A stretch of 30,397 bases of DNA from a virus: the IMG/VR virus record IMGVR_UViG_3300025543_000135, positions 1 to 30,397 of that record. The stretch is one strand, 5' to 3'. Positions 6,240 through 26,563 of the stretch are shown piece after piece (positions within the stretch are counted from its first letter, which is position 1; every line of letters begins with the position of its first letter). Made by a program: the position numbers and the translations under genes. The notes below the pieces were generated by a model, which saw nothing but the letters and a program-made list of their open reading frames with translations, searched no databases and had not been told where the DNA came from.

Positions 6240-7688
6240 TTATGATCCTGCTTTTAACAATACAAAGTTATTTGCACCTTGCACAACTAAACATCTTTCT
6301 GATAAGAAGTGAACTTCCATGTTATCAGTAGAAGTAGTAGCTGCTCCACCAACAGATCCTAAGACCCATGATTTCATTCTACGATCTTCAGTCTCAGAAG
6401 CTCTATATCTTACGTGTAAGAAAGGACGTCTGATGTTAGATCCTAATGACTGATCATAAACAGTCGAAGTTCCAGCAGGAACCACAACACCATCTAAATC
6501 ACTCATCATACCTCTTGTAGTAGCATCATTTAAGTATCTCCAATCAGTTTTGTAGAAGTCATAAGAACCTCTTCTAAAACCTGAAAAACCTAAGTTAAGA
6601 GCCATATTCTCATCGTTATCAAATAAACCATAAGAAGTACCACCTGAACCATAAGAGTTAAGACCAGCTAATAGATCATCAATCTCTAAAGTTTTAGCTC
6701 TATTTAAGAAAAGCATATTTTCTTCAATAGCTCCTTGCTTATCAAGAGTTGAAAGTATAGAATCAAAATCATCTAAATCTAACTTTTCATTCGCAGATCC
6801 TTGGAACACGTGACCACCTTTTTCAATTTGATCAAGCATACCTGATGTGCCTTTTAAACCAGCAGCATTTGTTCCAGGTACAGCTTCAACCATAGTCATT
6901 TCTAAGTAATCTTCAAATCTAAGTCTTGTTTCAGACTCAGCTTTTAGATACCATAAATAACCAGATGTTCCGTCTTCAGTAGCAACTTCAACCCAACCAA
7001 TCTGTGCAGCATCAGAACCATTAACTTCGTAATAGTCTTTAATGATTACAGGATTGTTTGTTTTAGTAGCAAATTCAGGCTGTAAAGCTTCTGTTCTACC
7101 AGCTGAACCTTTTGCATATTCAGAACCAAAAACAAACAAGTTAACAGCATCCGCAGCAGCTAAGCTAGCATTAGTTAATGCAGCATAGTTGTAAGGATCA
7201 ACTGTGATAGTTGTTACTAAGTTACTAGAAGATGTAGCTCCAGTAACTGTAGAATTAGCTGTAACAATAGCTACAACTCTCTTGTCTGAATCAGTCTTTA
7301 GTATAGTTAATAAGTCACCAACTCTAATAGCGCAATTCTCAGCACCAGAGTGAATCTCTATTTTATTAGCCGTGTGACCATCAGATGCTTTTAACTTAGC
7401 TCCAGCGCCAGCTGCGAAAGCTTTGTACCCGATGTGTAGTCTATTTTGTTCAGACCAAATTACTTGATCCGATGTCATTGGCATCTCTGCGCCAACCATT
7501 CTTAAGAACCCGTTTAAAGTTCTGTTTCCGTATCGCTCTACTTCCTCTTCGTATAACTCAGGTAAGTATTGCTTTGACCAACCCTCTCCATTAGCTTGAA
7601 AGTCCAAATAATTACCATTGGTAAGATTTTGTGCTTTCTCAGGCATAATAGCGGTAGAGTCGTGTGTGCTTGAAAATGTATAAGCCAT
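6240..7688 (-). CDS. Major capsid protein, HK97-fold type (482 aa)
   Basis: Position decides the call: it follows TerL, portal and scaffold and is followed by connector proteins. Length (482 aa) fits the capsid proteins of crAss-like and marine podoviruses. The N-terminus has Y-L-P-E-L-Y-E-E-E-V and G-N-R-T-L-N-G-F-L (about residues 41-62), consistent with an N-arm and spine helix; a beta-rich middle and the segment R-R-P-F-L-H-V-R-Y-R-A-S near 417-428 follow. No cleavage site or separate prohead protease was recognised. The leader before the ATG is A-rich with no Shine-Dalgarno. A strong hairpin directly after the stop may boost or isolate its message. This protein is the obvious candidate client of the phage chaperonin. 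Confidence 0.82.
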   Translation of the reverse strand: MAYTFSSTHDSTAIMPEKAQNLTNGNYLDFQANGEGWSKQYLPELYEEEVERYGNRTLNGFLRMVGAEMPMTSDQVIWSEQNRLHIGYKAFAAGAGAKLKASDGHTANKIEIHSGAENCAIRVGDLLTILKTDSDKRVVAIVTANSTVTGATSSSNLVTTITVDPYNYAALTNASLAAADAVNLFVFGSEYAKGSAGRTEALQPEFATKTNNPVIIKDYYEVNGSDAAQIGWVEVATEDGTSGYLWYLKAESETRLRFEDYLEMTMVEAVPGTNAAGLKGTSGMLDQIEKGGHVFQGSANEKLDLDDFDSILSTLDKQGAIEENMLFLNRAKTLEIDDLLAGLNSYGSGGTSYGLFDNDENMALNLGFSGFRRGSYDFYKTDWRYLNDATTRGMMSDLDGVVVPAGTSTVYDQSLGSNIRRPFLHVRYRASETEDRRMKSWVLGSVGGAATTSTDNMEVHFLSERCLVVQGANNFVLLKAGS

Positions 7689-8818: not shown

Positions 8819-11215
8819 CTACCCCATTAATTGGCTAAGGTTTAAACCTTGGTCCGCTTGTGGTGTAGGCATAGCATTTTCAGGTGCTATTTTTTCTTGC
8901 TGGGTTTGTCTTTGTTCTTGACCCTGCATTGAAACTCTTTTATCTTTACGATCTTCTCTTGACGAATCTGAATCAGTTCTTGCTTTAGCTTTAAGCTCTT
9001 CTAATTGCATGTCATACTCAAACTGAGACTGCATTAGTTGTTGTTTTACTTGTGCTTCTTGTTGAAGTTTTTGTATTTCAAATTGAGACTTAGCTTGTTC
9101 AAGTTGTATTTTTTGCTCATTAAGAACTTGTTGCTTTTGTGTTTCAGCTAAAGAAGTTTGCTCTGCTGCTTGCGCTTGAGCTTGTGACTGAGCCTGCATA
9201 TTTTGTTGTTGCATAGCTTGCTCTTTAGCCATTTTTTCTTCACGCTTCTTTTTTAACATTCTATTAGCTAGCTTTAAGTTTTTAACTTCTCTAAGCTCTA
9301 TAGCATCTTCTAAATATATTTGCCCGCCTTGTAGTGCTACTTGTATATTTTGCTCTAATAATTGATTTTCTGCTTCGTCAGGTTCTAGATTTAAAGATAT
9401 TCCAAAATCTAATAGGCTACTGTTTTCCAACTCTTTTAATGTTTTAGAGTTATATAAAGAAACACTTTGTATTAAAGCTTGATAAGTTGTAGGAAAAGCT
9501 ATTGCATCTGCTATTCTCATGCTTATATTCTCACAAGTTCTTAGTGTAACATACAAGCTAGATTGTAATATGTGTCTAGTTGCTACGTTAGAATTTGCTG
9601 CAGCAAGTTTTTGTAAACCTACTAAAGCATACTTATCTGGATTACTACCATCTCTAGCTTCGTTAAGCCCGGTAACGTCTCTTATCATTTGTAAGTAATA
9701 TTGATAAGTTTGTATAAGTCCTTGTATTTTACCCATACCATTATTAGTATTTAACTCTTGTATAGGAACTCTACCAGGATTACCAGTACCATCTTGAGTC
9801 ATTGACCTACCTACAATACTACCAGTTTGAAAATACATATTCAAAGCTTCTGCTGGATTATAGCTAGTTCCGTTTCCTAAGTCTACTTCTGACAATCCGT
9901 CTATGTCCATATAAACACCATCAGGTATTATTCTAGACATTACCTGTTGTAGCTTTAAATGTGTAATTTGTATCATATCAGCAAATGCTGTAATTCTACT
10001 AACTAAACTTTCTATTCTACCCTTGTACATTCTAGGTGCTACTAAAGAATAATTCATATTAACCTTAGTAATATCAGCTTCAGGTCTAGTCATGTTTTTT
10101 GACATACCCCATTTTAGCATTTTATTAGTTCCTAAAACTTTAGCACCAGAATATAATACTTCTATAGATCTATGAGCTTTTTTAAAGTTGTCAGTTTCTT
10201 CAGCTTCTAAAAAAGTATCTTGTTTTTCTAAAGCTTTTTCAAAGCCATTGTCTTTTTTCTTTATTTTAAAAACTTGATTAGTATAGGTTTTGTAATCAAA
10301 GTATAAAACTTGAACAGTTTGATTATCATACTTAGCGCCTAAAGACCTAGTGTTCTGAGCACTTCCGCGGTATTTTTGTAAATCTTTTATATCTTCAGGA
10401 GACAAGTCAGGAAACTGTTTTACTAACTCAGCTAAGCTTATTGATTTAACTTCACCAATATAATACAAATCATCAAAATAAGGATCTTCAGTAAATGAAT
10501 ATACTAAAGAAGATGGATCTACGTATTCTACTTTTATACCTTCACTTTCATTAAAGTTTGTTTTAGTGCAAGCTATACCTAATACTGTTAGGTCATAGTT
10601 TAATCTTCTTCTAATTAAATCATATTTATTTTTATCTAATATATAATTTATAGCTTCTTCTTGAGCAACCTCTATAGATTGTTTGTAATCAAACTGCATG
10701 TGAGCTTCTATATCTTCGACTTGCTTAGGTATGTTTTTTCCTTTAGGACCTCTTGAAACATCTTTACCAGTTGTTCTTTTAACAGCTTCTATATACTTAG
10801 CTGCATTAATATCTTCAAGTATGCTTGTTGCGTATTCAGTTCTTTTCTGAACAGATGTAGGATCTTGTGAGTAAGCTTTTAGCTCGTAATTTCTTTGTGA
10901 TATACCGTTAACTAATATATCTACAAACTTAGGTACAACTGGCACAGGTTTCCAGTCTAAGTTTAAATAAGATAAATCACCATTAATAGATAGTTCGTCT
11001 TTGTATTTTTGAACAGATTGCTCTCCTCTTGCATATAGTCTAAGTCTGTGGAAGTTGTTATAGTTGGTGTTAAACCTATCGTAAACTCCTCTATCGTTTC
11101 TAAACCACTCATTTTCTATAGCTCTACCTACAGCTAGCCCGTACTCTAGTGTAGCTTTTTCTGATTCAGGTACTACCTGATCTGGAAATGAACTATTATA
11201 ATTAGTATTTATCAT
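8819..11215 (-). CDS. Portal protein (798 aa)
   Basis: Immediately follows TerL (stop TAA directly abutting the ATG) and precedes scaffold and capsid. The N-terminal part has R-L-Y-A-R-G-E-Q (about 59-66), a W-K-P-V-P-V-V-P-K-F-V-D-I segment (88-100) typical of portal wing strands, and E-Y-V-D-P-S-S-L-V-Y (229-238). The region 470-560 is helical with Gly-Asn loops and could hold the clip and stem. From about residue 640 on, the protein is a Gln/Ala-rich coiled coil with a low-complexity tail, resembling the long barrel extensions of podovirus portals. Its length is large for a portal (P22 is 725 aa) but normal for crAss-like relatives. The ring would form the DNA channel and dock TerL. Confidence 0.85.
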   Translation of the reverse strand: MINTNYNSSFPDQVVPESEKATLEYGLAVGRAIENEWFRNDRGVYDRFNTNYNNFHRLRLYARGEQSVQKYKDELSINGDLSYLNLDWKPVPVVPKFVDILVNGISQRNYELKAYSQDPTSVQKRTEYATSILEDINAAKYIEAVKRTTGKDVSRGPKGKNIPKQVEDIEAHMQFDYKQSIEVAQEEAINYILDKNKYDLIRRRLNYDLTVLGIACTKTNFNESEGIKVEYVDPSSLVYSFTEDPYFDDLYYIGEVKSISLAELVKQFPDLSPEDIKDLQKYRGSAQNTRSLGAKYDNQTVQVLYFDYKTYTNQVFKIKKKDNGFEKALEKQDTFLEAEETDNFKKAHRSIEVLYSGAKVLGTNKMLKWGMSKNMTRPEADITKVNMNYSLVAPRMYKGRIESLVSRITAFADMIQITHLKLQQVMSRIIPDGVYMDIDGLSEVDLGNGTSYNPAEALNMYFQTGSIVGRSMTQDGTGNPGRVPIQELNTNNGMGKIQGLIQTYQYYLQMIRDVTGLNEARDGSNPDKYALVGLQKLAAANSNVATRHILQSSLYVTLRTCENISMRIADAIAFPTTYQALIQSVSLYNSKTLKELENSSLLDFGISLNLEPDEAENQLLEQNIQVALQGGQIYLEDAIELREVKNLKLANRMLKKKREEKMAKEQAMQQQNMQAQSQAQAQAAEQTSLAETQKQQVLNEQKIQLEQAKSQFEIQKLQQEAQVKQQLMQSQFEYDMQLEELKAKARTDSDSSREDRKDKRVSMQGQEQRQTQQEKIAPENAMPTPQADQGLNLSQLMG

Positions 11216-13441
11216 TTATATTAATTTTGAATTATACCCTGTATTGTCATATTTTTTAATACTCAAACTAACTCCGTTACTTTTTCGTAAAGCTGTAGGC
11301 TTGTATTTATTTTGATTTACTGCCATTATAGCCAAACCAGAACTAATTGAAGCATCATGTTTAGTTCTATTGTTAATGTTGAACTTAGCCCAATCTTCTA
11401 ATGTATTTTGAAAATATATATTGCCATATTGGTTATTTTCACCAATACCAACGTGGTTTTCTATATAGCTTTCAATAGCAGCAGCATGCGCTTGCTTAAT
11501 ATCTTCACTGGTATTAGGTATACCACCAATTTCTTTTTCAGTTGTAGAAAGCTTGTTCCAAACTTTATCAGGTCTGTTTATGCTAAAACCTCTATAGCCT
11601 CTTCTTTTTAAATAATACAATAAACGAGGTTTGTTGTTCTCTGCTAGTATAGGCATCCCATAAAAGTGAAGCGCCATTAGAACGTCCTCAAAGAACACCT
11701 CGGCGGTTTGTGGTCTACATATATACTCTAAAAAGAAATGGTTTGGTGGAGAGTCAAATAAGCTAAACTTAGTTAATCCATGAAGTGCTCCTTTACTGCC
11801 GCGACCATCAACAGTACCGCTAATATCGTAAGAGTCACAGCCGAAAGCTCCAACATCTTTATTACCTGGATGCTTAATACCATTTTTAATTATTATATTG
11901 TTTTGCATTTCTAAATTAGGAACCCAAGATACTAGAAATCTTCCATTTTTATTAGGAACAAACTCTACTTTAGTATCTTTTATACCTTTTTGCCAATAAA
12001 AACTTCCTTGAGTAACTAGCTTGTTGTTTTCAAAATCAGAGTTGTAATCAATTTGTTCGTATATCTTAGTTAAGTTAAACAAACTATCTTTAGTTTCGTC
12101 TCTAAAAGCGTGAGCCTCAGTTCTTGGAAACTGTCTATAGTATTCGTTTAAACTATCACTATCTTCTTTTAATCCTGCAACTTCATTTTCCCAGTGTTCA
12201 ATAACTCCTGTTGTAATTTCATAACCATCTGCTCCTTTGATATTATCTTGTCCTCTAACGAATACAGGCAATCCGTAAGTATCGATGAATCCCTCGTAGT
12301 TCCACTCCATAGGTATGAACAAGCTATAGAGTCCAGAAGCAGTTTGTCCGTTTCTATTTCTTTTTGTAACGTTTGAACTTTCGTATAGTTTTTTAAAATT
12401 GTCTCCACCTTTATCTAAAGCATTTGAAGTTGAGCCCATCATACATTTGCCTACAATCCTTGATCCTAGCCTTAATGTGGTTTTTGTAACTCTCCAGTTG
12501 TTTAATATATTGTCAGGTCTCTCCCATTTACCACTTTCATCGTGAGCTAATAGTTTTAGCTTTTCACCATCGTAAGAGTTATCACCAGTGTTCTTCCAGT
12601 CAATAGTTGTATCAAGACCGTCTAATTCTCTTAATTGTTCATTGCTCTCCAGCTTTTTTCTAGTAAGTTTGGATGCTGGAACCCTATATGCCAACTCAGT
12701 CTTTGGCCGATCCATACCGTCTTGAATTGGCTTGAAGAAAAACGGATAGTTAACGGATATTGGTACAACTTTATCTGTAAACATTTTTTTAGCATCTGAA
12801 CCCGACTTGCTGAGTATTCCAAATCTTGAGTCACTAGATATTGTCGCTTGGTTAACAAGTTCGGCTGAAGACATAAATGAAAATCCAGATCGTCTGTTTT
12901 TGAGGTAGCACATTCCGTAACACCTTGCATCTGCCTTGCATGCTTCCCAAAATATAAAGAAAAGTCTGTTTGCTTCTCTAAAATCAGGGGCTCCAACGTC
13001 GATCTTTGACCATTGGAGGTACATGTAATGTGTACCAGTAATATAAGTAGGAACATTGTTATTATAAAACCAGTAACCTTGTTCTCTTCTTTTGAACTCT
13101 TCGTCGATATAATCATACCAATTTTCTTTAAACTCGGCTGGATATTCTTCCCAGTCAAACCTACTTTTAATTCTTTTTAATTCTTTTGGATACTCTTGTC
13201 TTTCCCAGTGTTGTTCCGCTTTTTCTTTACTTCGTTTAAACGGTTCATCTGTTGCTGGTAAAGCAATCCTGAGATTCTGTATTTCAATGATCTGTCCAAT
13301 TTTACCTGTTTTACTTATTACTATAAAATCATAATCAGAGTTATAGCCATACTCCCATTTTTTAAATCTATTGTTTTTAGCTAATATCTTAGGATTTACA
13401 ACGTCCTTAACTTCTTCCCATAGAGCTTGCTTGTAACTCAC
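11216..13441 (-). CDS. terL: Terminase large subunit (741 aa), GTG start, atypical Walker A
   Basis: Two-domain packaging motor. The ATPase part shows Walker B L-K-L-L-A-H-D-E (295-302, D301/E302) and a coupling motif G-S-T-S-N (336-340). The position of Walker A holds K-N-R-R-S-G-F-S-F (181-189), with Phe where the P-loop Lys would be; the paired Arg may substitute. The nuclease domain shows a plausible RNase-H-fold acidic triad: D536 in F-G-C-D-S-Y-D, E601 in I-L-A-E-N-N, D697 in K-H-D-A-S-I-S. The start is GTG, overlapping the upstream stop as GTGA (13438-13441), so translation is probably coupled to the 91-aa gene. Longer than most terminases (500-600 aa), as in crAss-like phages. Confidence 0.9.
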   Translation of the reverse strand: MSYKQALWEEVKDVVNPKILAKNNRFKKWEYGYNSDYDFIVISKTGKIGQIIEIQNLRIALPATDEPFKRSKEKAEQHWERQEYPKELKRIKSRFDWEEYPAEFKENWYDYIDEEFKRREQGYWFYNNNVPTYITGTHYMYLQWSKIDVGAPDFREANRLFFIFWEACKADARCYGMCYLKNRRSGFSFMSSAELVNQATISSDSRFGILSKSGSDAKKMFTDKVVPISVNYPFFFKPIQDGMDRPKTELAYRVPASKLTRKKLESNEQLRELDGLDTTIDWKNTGDNSYDGEKLKLLAHDESGKWERPDNILNNWRVTKTTLRLGSRIVGKCMMGSTSNALDKGGDNFKKLYESSNVTKRNRNGQTASGLYSLFIPMEWNYEGFIDTYGLPVFVRGQDNIKGADGYEITTGVIEHWENEVAGLKEDSDSLNEYYRQFPRTEAHAFRDETKDSLFNLTKIYEQIDYNSDFENNKLVTQGSFYWQKGIKDTKVEFVPNKNGRFLVSWVPNLEMQNNIIIKNGIKHPGNKDVGAFGCDSYDISGTVDGRGSKGALHGLTKFSLFDSPPNHFFLEYICRPQTAEVFFEDVLMALHFYGMPILAENNKPRLLYYLKRRGYRGFSINRPDKVWNKLSTTEKEIGGIPNTSEDIKQAHAAAIESYIENHVGIGENNQYGNIYFQNTLEDWAKFNINNRTKHDASISSGLAIMAVNQNKYKPTALRKSNGVSLSIKKYDNTGYNSKLI

Positions 13442-13713
13442 TTACTTCTCCCTTCTGCAAAACCCTTAAAAGTTTTTTGTTCTTTAACTTCCTTAGGTTT
13501 TTCATTTAGCATATCTTCTTCTTGTTGTATACGATTAAGTATTTCAAAAGCATCGAATATAGCTAGTTTTTTAGTAGCGGCAGCATTCTTTAATCTGTCA
13601 GCGCTTACATCGTCGTCTGAGTCAACAATCTTTTCTTTTGCTACCTTTATTAATTCTTCTACAGCTTTTTGCCCAGCTTCTATAATTTTTATTTTAGTTT
13701 CTTTGGTTTTCAT
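13438..13713 (-). CDS. Candidate terminase small subunit (91 aa)
   Basis: A short, mostly helical and charged protein directly upstream of terL and coupled to it by a GTGA overlap. The central stretch A-A-A-T-K-K-L-A-I-F-D-A-F-E-I-L-N-R-I-Q (about 44-63) would form a helical hairpin, and the C-terminus is basic (G-R-S-K). Small terminases sit in this position, recognise DNA and load TerL, but they diverge strongly in sequence; there is no obvious helix-turn-helix here. The call rests on position, size and helix content. Its start overlaps the end of the tandem GroES-like gene by 20 bases. It could instead be an unrelated small head protein. Confidence 0.45.
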   Translation of the reverse strand: MKTKETKIKIIEAGQKAVEELIKVAKEKIVDSDDDVSADRLKNAAATKKLAIFDAFEILNRIQQEEDMLNEKPKEVKEQKTFKGFAEGRSK

Positions 13714-14242
13714 AATTTAATACAATTTTATTTAATCTCATACAGTAGAGCTTTTCTTTGTTAATTAAAAACTCAAATTCAGATTCTGGTTTAAAAATTA
13801 TATGGTCACCAACTTTTACATATTGGTTTTGTGGGCAAGTATGAACTACACCTTCATTTGGCTGCTCTTTTCTAGTATGTAAATAGCTAGAGTTGTCAAC
13901 AGGTTTAATAAAACAATAATCTAAATGAGATTTATCGTTATACATATACAACTGATCAGGTCCACAAAAATAAAGATCGTCTTTAAAATACCTAGCACTA
14001 TTTCTTTCTCTACCTTTTTGGTCGTACCATCTTCTAAATATATTGTGATGAACATATACTTCATCACCTATTTTAACTGGAGAAGAGTAAGCAGTCGGTG
14101 TCGAAACAACAACTGCTTTTTTACTCACAAATTTGTGGTCTTCTATTATGGTATTTATAATAAGAGATTTATCTCCTACTTTTGTCTCATTATCATACCT
14201 TTTGTGTAAAGGTTTAATAATAAAGTCGTACAAGCTATTCAC
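13694..14242 (-). CDS. Protein with two tandem GroES-like domains (182 aa), GTG start
   Basis: Both halves resemble chaperonin-10. Domain 1 (about 5-105) starts F-I-I-K-P-L, has a long loop (16-40) where the GroES mobile loop would be, then A-V-V-V-S-T-P, V-K-I-G-D-E-V-Y-V (56-64) and a terminal D-D-L-Y-F...D-Q-L-Y-M. Domain 2 (about 108-177) starts C-F-I-K-P-V, then G-V-V-H-T, V-K-V-G-D-H-I-I-F (142-150) and K-E-K-L-Y-C-M...N-K-I-V-L. These match the GroES order of IKP-type first strand, G-E-V strand, V-K-V-G-D-x-V-x-F and closing strand. The start is GTG, overlapping the upstream stop by 8 bases. A co-chaperonin-like or structural role is inferred; a canonical GroES is encoded separately at 24762-25022. 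Confidence 0.55.
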   Translation of the reverse strand: MNSLYDFIIKPLHKRYDNETKVGDKSLIINTIIEDHKFVSKKAVVVSTPTAYSSPVKIGDEVYVHHNIFRRWYDQKGRERNSARYFKDDLYFCGPDQLYMYNDKSHLDYCFIKPVDNSSYLHTRKEQPNEGVVHTCPQNQYVKVGDHIIFKPESEFEFLINKEKLYCMRLNKIVLNYENQRN

Positions 14243-14474
14243 CGTAATTCAAATCGTATTCTACAGATATAGCCATATTTCTATTAAACTTTTTCCAAGG
14301 AACAATCTCTTTATTCTTAGTTATAAAAATATCATAAGAGTTGTCCTCGTTATTATGTATTATATTAGAAATAACGTGATCGCCCCAAACTTTCTGTCCA
14401 ATAGAATAGTGCATTGCTTTATCTTTGTAGTCAGAGCCTATACTTATTTTTCTTACAGTGCTACTCTGCTTCAT
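14235..14474 (-). CDS. Small conserved phage protein (79 aa), function unknown
   Basis: Overlaps the 82-aa gene upstream by 14 bases and the tandem GroES-like gene downstream by 8, so it belongs to a coupled set. The sequence has R-K-I-S-I-G-S-D-Y-K-D-K-A-M-H-Y (8-23) and alternating hydrophobic strands ending V-P-W-K-K-F-N-R-N-M, suggesting a small beta domain. I associate this start with small proteins of marine phages but know no function. No signal peptide, membrane segment or catalytic motif is visible. Confidence 0.6.
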   Translation of the reverse strand: MKQSSTVRKISIGSDYKDKAMHYSIGQKVWGDHVISNIIHNNEDNSYDIFITKNKEIVPWKKFNRNMAISVEYDLNYGE

Positions 14475-14770: not shown

Positions 14771-15240
14771 CTACAATTACCGCTATTATTAACTACACCA
14801 CTTGAGCTAGTATTTACATATACTCTAGCTTCTGAAGCGTTAAAAAATGCTATACTAGAACTATTTAATGTAGTTGTACCAGCGTCGCTATACACAATAT
14901 CGTTCAGGCCTGGGAAAGTTCCACTTCCATTATGATAAATTGTTTCTTCAAACTCTTCTATAGAGCAAGCTTGATTAGGACCATCACCACTTACTCCACC
15001 TGTAAAAGAAGTTACAGAAACAAAATCATGATCATAGGCATAGAACTCTGACATATTATGTGGTGCATTTCCATCGGGACGATCACTAGAAGCATTGTTT
15101 AAGTTTATATTATCTACAGTACCATCGCTGCAGTCTTTCAAACTTATATTGCTATGAGCGTTTTCAGCACTGTAGTTATCATTACTAAGTTCTCTTTTAA
15201 TACCTAGTAAACTAAGAGCACCACTACTTGGAACTGCCAT
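14767..15240 (-). CDS. Small fibre-associated protein (157 aa)
   Basis: Encoded directly after the S74 fibre gene with a TAATG overlap. The start P-S-S-G-A-L-S-L-L-G-I-K-R-E-L and the segment A-P-H-N-M-S-E-F-Y-A-Y-D-H-D (about 59-72) match a pattern I know from small phage tail-fibre proteins ending a fibre block. The C-terminal half is Ser/Asn/Gly-rich with Cys at 92 and 156, likely beta-structured. It may be a fibre tip, an adhesin or a fibre chaperone. There is no membrane segment. Confidence 0.55.
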   Translation of the reverse strand: MAVPSSGALSLLGIKRELSNDNYSAENAHSNISLKDCSDGTVDNINLNNASSDRPDGNAPHNMSEFYAYDHDFVSVTSFTGGVSGDGPNQACSIEEFEETIYHNGSGTFPGLNDIVYSDAGTTTLNSSSIAFFNASEARVYVNTSSSGVVNNSGNCR

Positions 15241-17105
15241 TATATTAATCTTTTTAATCCATCAACTTGTTTTGATAGGTCTTTTATAGCTTCTATTAGT
15301 AGTGGTACAATTTTTTCATACTTAACAGCTTTGTAGCCATTTTCTCTAGTAGTAACCACATCTGGTAGTACTTTTTCTATTTCTTGAGCTATAACACCTA
15401 TGTCGTGTCCACTATTACCATGAACTTCTTCTTTTTCTATCCAGTCAAACTCTACACCTTGTATTTTTTTTACTTTGTCTAAAGCTTTATCAATAGTTTT
15501 AATATTATCTTTTAATCTAATATCAGATGTAGAAAAAGCTACAATATCATTTGAAGCATCTATTCTACCTTGTGTAGCAGATGGATTTACAGTTCCTAAA
15601 CCTATAGAATGATTAATCTTTAACTTACCTTGCATGTTTAAAGACATTGCACCTGTAGATTTACTTTGTCCATCATAACCCCACCAAAAACCTCTATCTG
15701 AATCACTGTTCATGCAGAAAGTCATAGCGTAGTCATTGTTTAAAGCACCATATGTAAACCCGTTTGTCATACCAATACCGTAAGTGCTTGCGCTACTCCA
15801 AACTCCTAGCTTAACATAGTATTGATTAGAATTAGCTATTAAACGTTGGCTAAAAACCATGTTGCCTGCTACATCTAATTTCTGTGCAGGAGCAGTATTT
15901 CCAATACCAACGTTGCCAGCATTGTCAATACGCATTCTTGAAGTACCATCATCTCTAATATCTAAAAGACCACCGCTTGTTCCTACGCCATCAAAAACCG
16001 CAAAACCTGTGCCACTACCAAAAGTAAAATAAGGAGTTTGTCCGCTTTGTTGTATCCTTATTTGTGGATATGAAGAAACCACTGATAGTGGTTGTGAAGG
16101 ACTAGTTGTTCCAATACCAACTTTGCCTTTCCAATAAAACTCTTCATCTCTTATTTTAAAATGACCTATTTTAGTTCCGCTAGTAGTAGTAGGAGTAGTG
16201 TTATCAAAATCTACAATATCCAAACTTAAACTCGAATCCCATCTAAATCCTACACCATAAGCATTTGACTCACCTACAAAAAGCATTGGCTTACCACTTG
16301 TAGATGCTCCATTAATAGCTGCTATTGCTGTATCACCATTTACTTCTAGTTTGTGTAAAGGACTAGCAGTTCCTATACCTACATTTCCTCTATCAAGAAC
16401 TAAAACGTCGTTATAAGATGTGCCTCCATTAACCATTGAAAAGTTATACCTAACAACGCCGGATGTTACTGTTTGTTTTAGTGATAACGTATAAGACTCA
16501 TTGTTTGCTGCGTAATACCACTTTTGATACAAGCCATTTGTGCTTGTGGTAGATGCCGCTATGTCAAGCGGCGAATCTATTGATGTAGCCCCATTTATAC
16601 CTACATTATCAGAAAATTTTACATCATCACTAAAAGTTTTAATACCAGCTACTGTTTGAGCTCCAGTAGTTAATACCGCATTTGTAGGTATTCCCATCTG
16701 AGATTGAAACTCAGACTTTGTAGCTTTTCTAATATAACCATCATTAGTGTTAATGTATACATCGGTAATAGTAGCAGTTGTATTACCTGAGGTTGTATTT
16801 ATCCAGCCAAACTCTGTATAACCATTACCTTGTGTTCTTACAATTTGATTTGCTGAATTGTTTCTACCTGTACCTACAGCTAAACCACCGGCCAGTGTTG
16901 AGTTAGCTGCTGTTCCTGTTGCAGCTAAGTAACTTGTACTAGTAAAAGCATTTGAACCTAGCTCTCTAGTTCCAACAACATTAGACCCATTAACAACTAA
17001 AGCCGTTGCTTCACTATTTTGTGCTGATAAACCTGATAACGTCAGACCGGCACTGCTACTGACAGAGCCGGTTACGTTAATGCTGTTAAGGAATTTTATC
17101 GCCAT
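15240..17105 (-). CDS. Tail fibre with C-terminal S74 intramolecular chaperone (621 aa)
   Basis: The N-terminus M-A-I-K-F-L-N is shared with the next fibre upstream, suggesting a common attachment module. The shaft carries repeated V-G-I-G-T-x-S-P-type units (for example G-N-V-G-I-G-T-A-S-P, G-K-V-G-I-G-T-T-S-P and G-N-V-G-I-G-N-T-A-P), typical of trimeric beta fibres. The C-terminal ~95 residues form a peptidase S74 / endosialidase chaperone: S-D-I-R-L-K-D-N-I beginning at the predicted catalytic Ser527 with Lys532, then G-V-I-A-Q-E-I-E-K-V-L-P-D-V and a terminal helix. In this family the chaperone trimerises the fibre and is released by cleavage just before the Ser. It probably forms a receptor-binding fibre on the virion. 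Confidence 0.88.
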   Translation of the reverse strand: MAIKFLNSINVTGSVSSSAGLTLSGLSAQNSEATALVVNGSNVVGTRELGSNAFTSTSYLAATGTAANSTLAGGLAVGTGRNNSANQIVRTQGNGYTEFGWINTTSGNTTATITDVYINTNDGYIRKATKSEFQSQMGIPTNAVLTTGAQTVAGIKTFSDDVKFSDNVGINGATSIDSPLDIAASTTSTNGLYQKWYYAANNESYTLSLKQTVTSGVVRYNFSMVNGGTSYNDVLVLDRGNVGIGTASPLHKLEVNGDTAIAAINGASTSGKPMLFVGESNAYGVGFRWDSSLSLDIVDFDNTTPTTTSGTKIGHFKIRDEEFYWKGKVGIGTTSPSQPLSVVSSYPQIRIQQSGQTPYFTFGSGTGFAVFDGVGTSGGLLDIRDDGTSRMRIDNAGNVGIGNTAPAQKLDVAGNMVFSQRLIANSNQYYVKLGVWSSASTYGIGMTNGFTYGALNNDYAMTFCMNSDSDRGFWWGYDGQSKSTGAMSLNMQGKLKINHSIGLGTVNPSATQGRIDASNDIVAFSTSDIRLKDNIKTIDKALDKVKKIQGVEFDWIEKEEVHGNSGHDIGVIAQEIEKVLPDVVTTRENGYKAVKYEKIVPLLIEAIKDLSKQVDGLKRLI

Positions 17106-23516: not shown

Positions 23517-24356
23517 TTATTTGTTTTCTGCTATTTCAGTATTTGAATTTTGTCGAGCGCTTCTATAATTTTGAATTATTTTTTTCTTTTCTTCTTCTGA
23601 TTTACCTTTTAAATTTTCAGCACTAACAGTTGAGGCTAATTCAGGATTGTTTTTAGCAAACTCTTGTTTATCTTTATTGTCAGCATCTTTATCCTGCTTG
23701 TACTTAGCTTTTTTGTATTGAGCTAGAAATTGTTCTTTGTTATTTGATTGTGACATGAAGTAATCTTGGCCTTCTTTTGTTATAACTTTATCACCTTTTT
23801 CAGTTACTCTAGTCGTCTTTAAAGATGAAGCTCCTGATACAGTTCTCATCATTTCGGATTTATTATACTCCATTGATGATTGTTTATTAACACTAGAGCT
23901 ATAGCCTAAGCTAGATAGTGTTCTTTTAATTCCTGGTTTACTATTTGCCATTTGTTCGTTATTTGCTTGATTTTGCGAGTTTACATTTGCAGCTAGCTGA
24001 GCCTGTGCATTTCCAGCTGCTCTTTGATTAGCTTGCTCTGTTTGTTGTTCTTTGTAAGCTTCTTTAGCTTTTTTATTTTTTACTAATCCTACAGTTAATC
24101 CAACTAAAGCTCCAACACCTGCACCTATAGGACCAGCAGCTGCGCCCATAGCAGCATACTTAGCTGTGTCACCAAGTATTCTTGCTCCTTCACCCTTAGC
24201 AGATTGAGCCTGTACGTTGCCGCTGGCTATATCACCAACGTCTGTAGCTAGAGCATCAACTGCTCCAGCAGCCGCTGGCATTCTTAAAGGAGAACCTACA
24301 TTGTATCCTGTTATGGATCTTAATGCGTTAGTATTTGGACCTGCTATTGTTCGCAT
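23517..24356 (-). CDS. Glycine-zipper protein, possible internal virion/ejection protein (279 aa)
   Basis: A Gly/Ala-rich hydrophobic segment (about 69-92) with G-x3-G spacing (G-P-I-G-A-G-V-G-A-L-V-G-L-T-V-G) suggests a membrane-inserting glycine zipper. It is followed by a Gln/Ala/Asn-rich helical stretch (95-140) and a charged, low-complexity C-terminus. Such a layout occurs in podovirus internal (ejection) proteins that cross the host envelope, but the call is inference. The start overlaps the winged-helix gene by 29 bases; M26 is an alternative start that would avoid the overlap. Late-operon position agrees with a virion role. Confidence 0.55.
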   Translation of the reverse strand: MRTIAGPNTNALRSITGYNVGSPLRMPAAAGAVDALATDVGDIASGNVQAQSAKGEGARILGDTAKYAAMGAAAGPIGAGVGALVGLTVGLVKNKKAKEAYKEQQTEQANQRAAGNAQAQLAANVNSQNQANNEQMANSKPGIKRTLSSLGYSSSVNKQSSMEYNKSEMMRTVSGASSLKTTRVTEKGDKVITKEGQDYFMSQSNNKEQFLAQYKKAKYKQDKDADNKDKQEFAKNNPELASTVSAENLKGKSEEEKKKIIQNYRSARQNSNTEIAENK

Positions 24357-24762
24357 ATGTTATTGCTTTAGTAATTACTTTAGTTGAGTAACTATTTTTA
24401 TTTTTAAGCTTGGCAATTGGTATTTCTTCATCACCAAGCATCATACGGTAGATTCTACTTATTAGCTGTTTGCACTTATAGGAAACTTTATATATATGAT
24501 ATTTTTGGGTTGTGCGATTTCTTTCTCTCCACACTATAATCCACCCTTGTTTCAATAATCTGTTCCAGCGCCTGTTATCCCAGCTATAAGAGTACGTACC
24601 TTTTTTATAATCTTCTTTATTAAATATTTCTATAGCATCTAAATAGATTAGTAGCTCTAAGTCTGCATCGTTAAGATCGTTAGTTCTACAAGCCCATTTT
24701 CTTATTATTCTATAATGTTGTAATAGACCTATACTTTTTAAATCACTAGATTCTATTCTCAT
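24328..24762 (-). CDS. Winged-helix (MarR-like) DNA-binding protein (144 aa)
   Basis: Arrangement of helices and a beta wing: helices at about 12-25 and 33-50, a recognition-like helix (S-W-D-N-R-R-W-N-R-L-L-K-Q-G, 60-73), then a wing W-I-I-V-W-R-E-R-N-R-T-T-Q-K-Y-H-I-Y (74-91) and a further helix (95-108). This order fits a MarR-type winged helix. It lies between GroES and a virion-like gene, coupled by TAATG to GroES. It could regulate late transcription or serve a structural DNA-binding role; no target site is known. Palindromes at 26923-26938 and 29669-29712 are possible operators, untested. Confidence 0.55.
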   Translation of the reverse strand: MRIESSDLKSIGLLQHYRIIRKWACRTNDLNDADLELLIYLDAIEIFNKEDYKKGTYSYSWDNRRWNRLLKQGWIIVWRERNRTTQKYHIYKVSYKCKQLISRIYRMMLGDEEIPIAKLKNKNSYSTKVITKAITYANNSRSKY

Positions 24763-25022
24763 TATAAAACAACAACAATACTTGAGTCTGTTATGACTCT
24801 ATATTCTTTTTCTTCTAATTCTAATTTAAAACCTGCATGCTTATCAAAGTATATAATGTCTCCATCTTTAACTCCAACTACTTCATTGCCTGTTTTATAA
24901 ACTTCTCCTTTTAAATATCTAATATCTTCCCTGTCTTTTTGATGAAGGATAAAGCCACTTTCCGTAGCTTTATCTCTTTCAATTATAGGATTTATTAGTA
25001 AATTCTTTCCTATTGCTTTCAT
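24762..25022 (-). CDS. groES: Phage co-chaperonin GroES (86 aa), shortened roof loop
   Basis: Chaperonin-10 fold: first strand N-L-L-I-N-P-I-I-E (7-15), mobile loop with the hydrophobic tripeptide F-I-L (24-26, in E-S-G-F-I-L-H-Q) matching I-V-L of E. coli GroES, then K-G-E-V (38-41), V-K-D-G-D-I-I-Y-F-D (51-60) and closing strands. Between G-E-V and G-D the spacing is about 9 residues shorter than in E. coli GroES, removing most of the roof loop; T4 gp31 is also short there. It would cap GroEL during folding of virion proteins. ATGA overlap with groEL, TAATG to the next gene. Confidence 0.88.
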   Translation of the reverse strand: MKAIGKNLLINPIIERDKATESGFILHQKDREDIRYLKGEVYKTGNEVVGVKDGDIIYFDKHAGFKLELEEKEYRVITDSSIVVVL

Positions 25023-26563
25023 GCCCTGATATTATTTATTATACAATCAGTAGACATTATAGTTGTAGCTACAGAAGCAGCGTTTTTTAATGCGCTTTTA
25101 GTAACCAGCAAAGGATCTATAATTCCGGCTTTAACCATATTAACCGTTTTTCCTGTAACCACATCTAAGCCTTGGCCTTCAACCTTTGGCTTTTCAAAAT
25201 CTTTAATACCAGCATTACTTAGTATTATTTCGTAAGGTTTTCTTATTGCTTGGTATAATACTTCTTCTCCTATACAAGTTGGTTTTAAATTAAAGCTAGC
25301 ATTTAATAAAGCTATACCTCCACCTGATACTATACCTTCTTTTATAGCTGCTTTTGTGGCACAAATAGCATCTTCAACCCTATCTAACTTTTCTTTAAAT
25401 TCTATTTCTGAACTTGCTCCAACTTTTACTATAGCTATTTTACTTTTTAAATTACCTATACGCTTTTCTATTTTTTCTATAGTGTTAGGATTTGTCAAAT
25501 CTTTTATTTGATTTTTTAAATCTTTTATTGTTGACTCTACTTTTTCGCTAGAGTTTTCAAATTTAAGTATAGTATCTTTTTGAGATGTTATAGCTTTTGA
25601 GCAAGTGCCTAGCATGTCAGGAGTAATTAAGTCCATATGATCTCCTAAGTCTTCATTTATTAAAGTTGCTCCTGTTACCAAGCATAGGTCACTTAGTACA
25701 TCTGCTTTTGAAACTCCATATATAGGAGCTTCTAATATATTTACTTTAATGTTACCTTTTAAAGAGTTCATAGCTAGAGAAGACTCAACCTGTTTGTCTA
25801 CGTCTGCAATTATTAAAAGTGGTTTTCCTTTTTTTATAACGTGTTCTAGTACCCCTTGTATTTTTCTAATATTTTCTATTTTGTTTTCAACTATTAAAAC
25901 TAGTGGATTTTCAAGCTCACAAATATTTTTAATTTTGTCCGTTAAAAAATGTTTACTTCTTAGTCCTCTATTAAATTGAAAACCTTCAACTACTTCTACA
26001 TATGTAGTTTCATCTTCTGACTTCTCCATTAACACTACGCCAGTTTCATCTACTTTTCTAAATGCATCACCTATTAAAGTACCTACTTCTTTATCATTGT
26101 TGGCAGATATAGTAGCTACTTGATCAATTTTTTTACCAGTAATTTTTTTAGAGTTTTTGTCTAAATATTTAATTACTTTTTTAACAGCTGAATCAATGCC
26201 TTCTTTCATTTTTCTACTGTCATCTAGCAAAGAGTGAGAGTTTATCTCATCTAATATAGACTTAGCTAATATTGTAGCTGTTGTAGTTCCGTCACCTGCG
26301 TCTTCTACTGTTTTTTGAGCCGCTTGTTTAATTAGCGTAGCTCCGATGTTTTCCAATGGATCTTGTAGCGTAATTGAATTAGCTACCGTTACTCCATCTT
26401 TTGTTATCTGTGGTGTACCATTACCATCTTCTATGATAACACATTTACCACTTGCGCCTAGCGTCGAACCTACAGCATTAGTAAGTTTTTCAACGCCAGT
26501 TGAAACCTGACCTCTAGCTGTATCGCCAAAGGTCAAGTTTTTAACTAACTTTAAATCTTGCAT
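25019..26563 (-). CDS. groEL: Phage chaperonin GroEL (514 aa)
   Basis: Group I chaperonin over its full length. Nucleotide-site features: I-T-K-D-G-V (53-58), D-G-T-T-T (91-95), catalytic-type Asp398 in R-V-E-D-A (395-399), and G-G-G (414-416). Two oddities: the usual L-G-P-K-G is L-G-A-S-G (35-39), and the protein ends at N-N-I-R-A just after the last equatorial strand, lacking the Gly-Gly-Met tail of E. coli GroEL (548 aa). In the apical domain the GroES/substrate-binding face reads L-R-S-K-H-F (201-206), versus Y-L-S-P-Y-F in E. coli. These point to a phage-adapted cage, perhaps for the capsid or fibre proteins. Leader is A-rich, no Shine-Dalgarno; ATGA-coupled to groES. Confidence 0.95.
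   Translation of the reverse strand: MQDLKLVKNLTFGDTARGQVSTGVEKLTNAVGSTLGASGKCVIIEDGNGTPQITKDGVTVANSITLQDPLENIGATLIKQAAQKTVEDAGDGTTTATILAKSILDEINSHSLLDDSRKMKEGIDSAVKKVIKYLDKNSKKITGKKIDQVATISANNDKEVGTLIGDAFRKVDETGVVLMEKSEDETTYVEVVEGFQFNRGLRSKHFLTDKIKNICELENPLVLIVENKIENIRKIQGVLEHVIKKGKPLLIIADVDKQVESSLAMNSLKGNIKVNILEAPIYGVSKADVLSDLCLVTGATLINEDLGDHMDLITPDMLGTCSKAITSQKDTILKFENSSEKVESTIKDLKNQIKDLTNPNTIEKIEKRIGNLKSKIAIVKVGASSEIEFKEKLDRVEDAICATKAAIKEGIVSGGGIALLNASFNLKPTCIGEEVLYQAIRKPYEIILSNAGIKDFEKPKVEGQGLDVVTGKTVNMVKAGIIDPLLVTKSALKNAASVATTIMSTDCIINNIRA

Follow-up and report, generated by a model that had tools for sequence, protein, structure and literature searches.

Why a phage encodes its own GroEL and GroES, and which lid and which client such a ring would serve, are the questions raised by a 30.4-kb virus fragment from IMG/VR (record IMGVR_UViG_3300025543_000135; "the window" below means this whole stretch of 30,397 nucleotides). 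A preliminary description proposed that the pair forms a folding cage enlarged by a short GroES roof and an altered, tail-less GroEL, and that this cage is tailored to a large virion protein.

The window holds the late region of a podovirus-like phage. Its terminase large subunit (TerL) is 63% identical to that of MW202828, an uncultured podovirus from Manatee Spring, and shares 45% identity with TerL of Flavobacterium elemo phages, 42% with Maribacter phage Panino and 37-39% with Cellulophaga phages. As the cultured relatives all have Flavobacteriia hosts, we infer that this marine phage also infects flavobacteria. The chaperonin and main structural genes are as follows.

25019..26563, minus strand: groEL, 514 aa (Pfam PF00118, Cpn60_TCP1, E 5.6e-55; phrog_5725, E 7e-141; residue map)
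24762..25022, minus strand: groES, 86 aa, single domain (Pfam PF00166, Cpn10, E 5.8e-9, above the cut-off; alignment with 53 host GroES)
24328..24762, minus strand: 144-aa ORF of unknown function (phrog_17028, unknown function, E 1.9e-9; its start overlaps the groES stop by 1 base)
11216..13441, minus strand: TerL, 741 aa (phrog_6681, E 1.5e-165; 63% identical to MW202828)
8819..11215, minus strand: portal protein, 798 aa, 91 kDa (phrog_6547, E 1.2e-131)
6240..7688, minus strand: major capsid protein candidate, 482 aa, 52.5 kDa, the proposed client (phrog_13704, E 1e-93; position matches the VirFam MCP of Calle_1)

Pfam confirmed groEL and groES where they had been placed before. The groEL stop and groES overlap by 4 bases (25019-25022). 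The groEL gene comes first, whereas bacterial operons usually have groES ahead of groEL. This phage order is common to the window, elemo and MW202828, and is not that of Cellulophaga phi38:1 or Flavobacterium immuto. The 144-aa ORF is likely co-translated with groES. The pair had been assigned to the late operon; this holds in the window, where both genes share the strand of the structural genes, but not as a general rule, since the pair and the late genes are on opposite strands in elemo and the pair adjoins replication genes in phi38:1. The 52-kDa capsid protein named as a possible client corresponds to the 482-aa, 52.5-kDa product of 6240-7688, the positional counterpart of the annotated MCP of Cellulophaga phage Calle_1.

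Residue changes in the phage GroEL

The window GroEL retains the catalytic and nucleotide-site residues of a Group I chaperonin: D52, D87 and D398 are present in it and in 44/44 phage relatives, and G415 in it and in 43/44. As noted before, its LGPKG motif reads LGASG (P33A, K34S), a change that runs through the phage clade and is common to phi38:1 and Panino. This motif had been counted among the contributors to cavity volume. However, P33 and K34 lie near the nucleotide site and not in the cavity wall, so that part of the proposal is not supported.

The apical groove of GroEL binds both the clients and the mobile loop of the lid. Four groove positions that are invariant in the hosts compared are changed in most of the phage clade, namely L234Q (35/44), V264M (35/44), A241I (37/44) and Y203H (28/44). 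A second set of changes concerns the contact between rings. The classic single-ring GroEL, SR1, carries mutations at R452, E461, S463 and V464; the window GroEL has R452E, E461K, S463F and V464E, while the hosts compared keep R, E, S and V, and it has deletions at 429-435 and 468-472, near the ring-ring interface. These substitutions suggest a set of lid and clients distinct from that of the host, and the ring-ring contact may be weaker or absent. The groove and ring-ring changes, which had escaped the preliminary description, are stronger than those in roof and tail.

One possible explanation is that this GroEL naturally works as a single ring, or as a double ring that splits easily, and that the larger cavity of one ring, not the roof, serves large clients, as in Pseudomonas phages EL and OBP. 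Single-ring states have been reported for the EL and OBP chaperonins (PMC5934643, PMC7185714), and a single-ring GroEL-GroES complex was reported with an 80% larger cavity (PMC5934643). The loss of all four SR1 contacts in the window fits this explanation, but the loss is variable across the clade, with R452 kept in seven phage sequences (elemo type) and E461 in 14/44, and other contacts may substitute. EL and OBP resemble the window in having phage GroEL homologues, with altered ring-ring contacts also suggested here, but they are very distant, far more divergent, and neither need a co-chaperonin nor use GroES (PMC7185714, PMC5934643). We therefore regard a single ring as a tentative and somewhat unlikely reading. 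It concerns the state of the ring and is compatible with the two-lid explanation that we prefer below.

The two-domain GroES-like protein and its neighbourhood

The preliminary description counted one GroES lid. A second, two-domain GroES gene had been missed; it lies upstream of TerL, with a small ORF between them.

13694..14242, minus strand: two-domain (Cpn20-like) GroES protein, 182 aa (phrog_13932; hhalign; AlphaFold2; Foldseek)
13438..13713, minus strand: 91-aa ORF between the two-domain GroES gene and TerL (gene order and alignment)

The 182-aa product matches phrog_13932, "co-chaperonin GroES". Its first domain (D1) spans about residues 1-101, with the mobile-loop tripeptide LII at 27-29, and its second (D2) about residues 109-177, with a loop that lacks the hydrophobic triad. 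D2 matches Cpn10 by hhalign at 95.7% (E 1e-8), with column-shuffled controls at most at 1.7%. Pfam Cpn10 is matched by 20/35 members of the two-domain family, and the D2 half of the family profile matches the phages' own GroES at E values down to 2.5e-7. D1 resembles GroES weakly by sequence (hhalign 24.5%), and its putative identity as a GroES domain rests on the predicted fold.

A sequence search of the PDB with the family reached GroES only at an E of about 0.75, and a fold comparison was therefore needed. AlphaFold2 modelled the protein from 80 sequences with a pLDDT of 87.5 and a pTM of 0.79. The top PDB match of the model in Foldseek was chloroplast Cpn20 (7ekq_R), aligned over the full length with E 9.4e-5 and TM 0.57/0.54; the next matches were single GroES chains aligning one domain. 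Since TM exceeds 0.5 over both domains, against 0.30-0.35 for one, both superpose together, and this joint superposition speaks for domains placed side by side, as in Cpn20, rather than stacked.

Our results thus support two GroES domains per chain, through profile and Pfam matches for D2 and through the predicted fold and the full-length Cpn20 match for D1, which is weak by sequence when taken alone. However, a GroEL-binding mobile loop is not found in both domains: the hydrophobic triad is present in D1 of 72/80 members and in D2 of 7/80 (73/80 without). We therefore describe the protein as Cpn20-like, not as Cpn20. The D2 of phi13:2 gp96 contains SLIYIPED, like the mobile loop of host-type GroES. 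D1 also has a conserved, nearly invariant insertion with HHN (75/80 relatives); in the window protein, HHN and a basic insertion (RRWYDQKGRER) lie at residues 65-80. No description of a phage tandem GroES was found in the mainly open-access literature searched.

Two-domain relatives in IMG/VR number in the hundreds, and probably more than a thousand: at least 588 contigs were found by one query and at least 540 by another, which possibly overlap. Wherever the sequence reached far enough (216/216 two-domain loci), the gene had TerL downstream of it and on its own strand. Among the contigs over 40 kb, 18/21 have the two-domain gene, GroES and GroEL together; in the remaining 3/21 the two-domain gene is 2-9 kb from the contig end, and the groEL/groES pair may therefore be cut off. 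The complete genomes of elemo, MW202828, Panino and phi38:1 also contain all three genes. Phage phi13:2 has both lids, with GroEL absent from its genome, while Tenacibaculum phage Gundel_1 has neither lid nor GroEL and keeps TerL and the small gene before it. In these few genomes, the presence of the two-domain gene follows that of a phage GroES and not that of TerL alone.

Small ORFs are found on both sides of the two-domain gene. An ORF like 13438-13713 precedes TerL in MW202828, phi13:2 and Gundel_1, and the TerLs of elemo, phi38:1 and Panino have a long N-terminal extension where this ORF would be. On an alignment that is only suggestive, the 91-aa ORF is possibly a small-terminase-like partner that is fused to the N-terminus of TerL in the latter three phages. 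Upstream of the two-domain gene, 14235-14474 (minus strand) encodes a 79-aa protein of a family with the pattern RKIS...MHY...WK, which is conserved in this position in elemo, phi38:1, Panino and MW202828 and for which a PHROG match was not found. The two GroES-type genes of phi13:2 (Pachyviridae) are at 10709-11311 and 88-336, one of them double, as in a T4-like lid-only strategy.

The fixed place of the two-domain gene beside TerL could indicate a packaging role. On that view the protein would serve in packaging or assembly, either as a small-terminase-like part or as a head factor, and not as a lid. Consistent with this, TerL follows it in every one of the 216 loci, the HHN and basic insertion in D1 is nearly invariant, and a small-terminase gene was not recognised. 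However, the gene is present in every cultured relative of the group that has a phage GroES and absent from Gundel_1, and because Gundel_1 keeps TerL and the small gene without it, a small-terminase role is disfavoured. Moreover, D1 has kept its loop triad, as lids that bind GroEL do, and the protein is absent from the products annotated as structural in phi38:1. A packaging part thus seems rather improbable to us, but the tie of the double lid to the terminase region is the main point that the two-lid model leaves unexplained.

GroEL homologues are found in 285/50,697 phage records and are diverse, so the genes might simply be an ordinary accessory GroEL/GroES set whose only effect is extra general folding capacity in late infection, roof, tail and groove having changed by neutral drift. 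This explanation is unlikely, since the three genes are retained together and the clade conserves the groove changes to a degree not expected from drift alone.

Roof, tail and cage volume

The 24762-25022 product has a Cpn10 domain and the hydrophobic mobile-loop tripeptide FIL, as expected of GroES; phage GroES keep this triad as FIL or LIL. The stretch from its G-E-V strand to G-D, which forms the roof, is 12 residues long; E. coli has 21 residues here and Flavobacteriia have 16. The roof loop is therefore not full, and the loss of about nine residues claimed earlier is exactly nine relative to E. coli. However, E. coli is the wrong yardstick because the flavobacterial roof is already at 16, and we preferred as baseline the GroES of the presumed hosts over E. 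coli GroES as sole reference. All 53 distinct Flavobacteriia GroES have the 16-residue stretch, so the loss relative to them is four residues, and more than half of the loss is already present in Flavobacteriia GroES (21 to 16 to 12). The 12-residue roof is found in 53/54 phage GroES from related IMG/VR contigs and in elemo and phi13:2, and an ORF upstream of Bacteroides SJC03 groEL reads as a GroES with the same roof.

The absence of the C-terminal Gly-Gly-Met tail from GroEL was likewise borne out: the protein ends in ...CIINNIRA, while 77/77 host GroELs end in GMPGMM or GMGGMM. The tail is found in 0/44 related phage GroELs and is also absent from 7/7 other phage GroELs checked (four Vibrio phages, Halocynthia phage JM-2012, Bacteroides SJC03 and Flavobacterium immuto). 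We estimated the gain in cage space as the summed volumes of the missing residues, which is an upper bound because some of the tail and roof lies outside the cavity. By this measure the cage has at most 12-14% more space than that of E. coli and 8-9% more than that of the host, the roof giving about 2% relative to the host.

The explanation first proposed is a gp31-like cage, enlarged mainly through loss of roof and tail and tailored to a large capsid protein or to fibres. T4 gp23 is 56 kDa, and the capsid candidate of the window, at 52.5 kDa, is smaller. T4 gp31 is roofless, and the GroEL-gp31 cage was measured as 8% larger, at 210,000 instead of 194,000 cubic angstroms (PMC6318259). The ceiling of 8-9% over the host is similar to this value, and the window GroES does have a roof reduced relative to other GroES (12 versus 21 or 16), together with a GroEL that has lost its tail. 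However, the roof share is small, and relatives with the same 12-residue roof have still smaller capsid candidates (452 aa in elemo, 443 aa in phi13:2). Tail loss, common to the seven further phage GroELs listed above, also affects more than cage volume: E. coli GroEL shortened by 13 residues at its C-terminus could not substitute for GroEL, and the Gly-Met tail has been proposed to act in encapsulation (PMC11978752). TerL (86 kDa) and the portal (91 kDa) are too large for full enclosure in any such cage.

What stands of this proposal is the phage pair, the short roof, the missing tail and the position among late genes here; the tailoring is not supported. Roof, tail and LGASG are clade-wide and partly general to phage GroELs, and are therefore not tailored to the client of this phage. 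As judged from sequence, the short roof and missing tail are traits of phage chaperonins and not a special adaptation here. The data argue only weakly for a cage specially enlarged for the capsid protein, and we consider the gp31-like explanation distinctly unlikely. We rejected a cage tailored to fibres because the fibre-like proteins have masses of 40-66 kDa and show no link to the pair. At the C-terminus of one product (15240-17105, minus strand), ~100 residues match the corresponding ends of many tail-fibre and baseplate PHROGs of different kinds, a pattern as expected for a shared fibre-tip or intramolecular-chaperone domain.

A model with two lids

We then propose, as a fairly probable explanation, a phage chaperonin with two lids that serves virion assembly in the flavobacterial host. 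The phage would bring its own Group I chaperonin, made up of a GroEL ATPase ring, a single-domain GroES lid and a two-domain Cpn20-like lid. Since its groove (L234Q, V264M, A241I, Y203H) and ring-ring contacts have diverged from those of the host, this GroEL probably pairs with the phage lids rather than with the host lid, and it is perhaps loosely joined or a single ring. Late proteins (most likely the capsid protein) would bind the groove while unfolded, become enclosed under a lid and fold; the portal and TerL could not be fully enclosed. In the lid ring, the two domains of the double lid would be neighbours, as they are in chloroplast Cpn20, and the protein would bind GroEL through the D1 loop. 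It may act alone or mixed with GroES, for example as 3 x 2 + 1 = 7 domains; chloroplast Cpn20 and Cpn10 form seven-domain hetero-oligomers (PMC5780408). With its shorter roof and missing tail, the cage would be at most slightly roomier.

Counting against the two-lid reading are the weak likeness of D1 to GroES by sequence and, unlike in Cpn20, the lack of the triad in D2 of 73/80 members. The case of phi13:2 shows that a phage can retain both lids while having no ring of its own, as T4 does with gp31, and such lids presumably act on host GroEL, as gp31 does. A more far-reaching version is an independently evolved, chloroplast-like three-part chaperonin, with a single-ring GroEL and a mixed GroES/Cpn20-like lid in which only some domains grip, asymmetric and adapted to virion proteins; we think this version doubtful.

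Among known systems, Cpn20 of chloroplasts and apicoplasts (PDB 7ekq) is the closest: it has two head-to-tail GroES domains, is the best full-length structural match, and occurs alongside a Group I chaperonin and a single-domain Cpn10/GroES. Unlike Cpn20, the window protein is phage-encoded, shares 14% identity with it, lacks the hydrophobic triad in D2, has the HHN insertion in D1 and lies beside TerL. T4 gp31 and other roofless phage co-chaperonins are likewise phage-made lids of GroES fold with a shortened roof. In contrast to T4, the window phage also brings its own GroEL, 12 roof residues remain, and the mobile-loop region is ~3 residues longer than that of E. coli GroES instead of 6 as in gp31 (PMC6318259). 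Phages elemo, immuto, phi38:1 and Panino have a homologous GroEL (38-42% identity) and GroES. In elemo, phi38:1 and Panino a two-domain GroES gene is also found upstream of TerL. Relative to these phages, the window clade is marked by the groEL-groES order with its 4-base overlap (the order as in elemo), LGASG (as in phi38:1 and Panino) and a distinct apical groove. The groEL/groES pair itself thus belongs to a known class, the phage Group I chaperonins, and the double lid is what is new.

In the literature searched, double GroES lids are described as plastid-type (Cpn20), and the phage group represents a second arrangement of the Cpn10/Cpn20 type. The group is large and widespread, and its double lid, single lid and own GroEL make a system small enough for reconstitution. 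With it one could address why two kinds of lid are needed by some chaperonins, how a sevenfold ring accommodates lids whose number of domains is even, and whether phages fold their capsid proteins through ring splitting and lid composition rather than through roof trimming.
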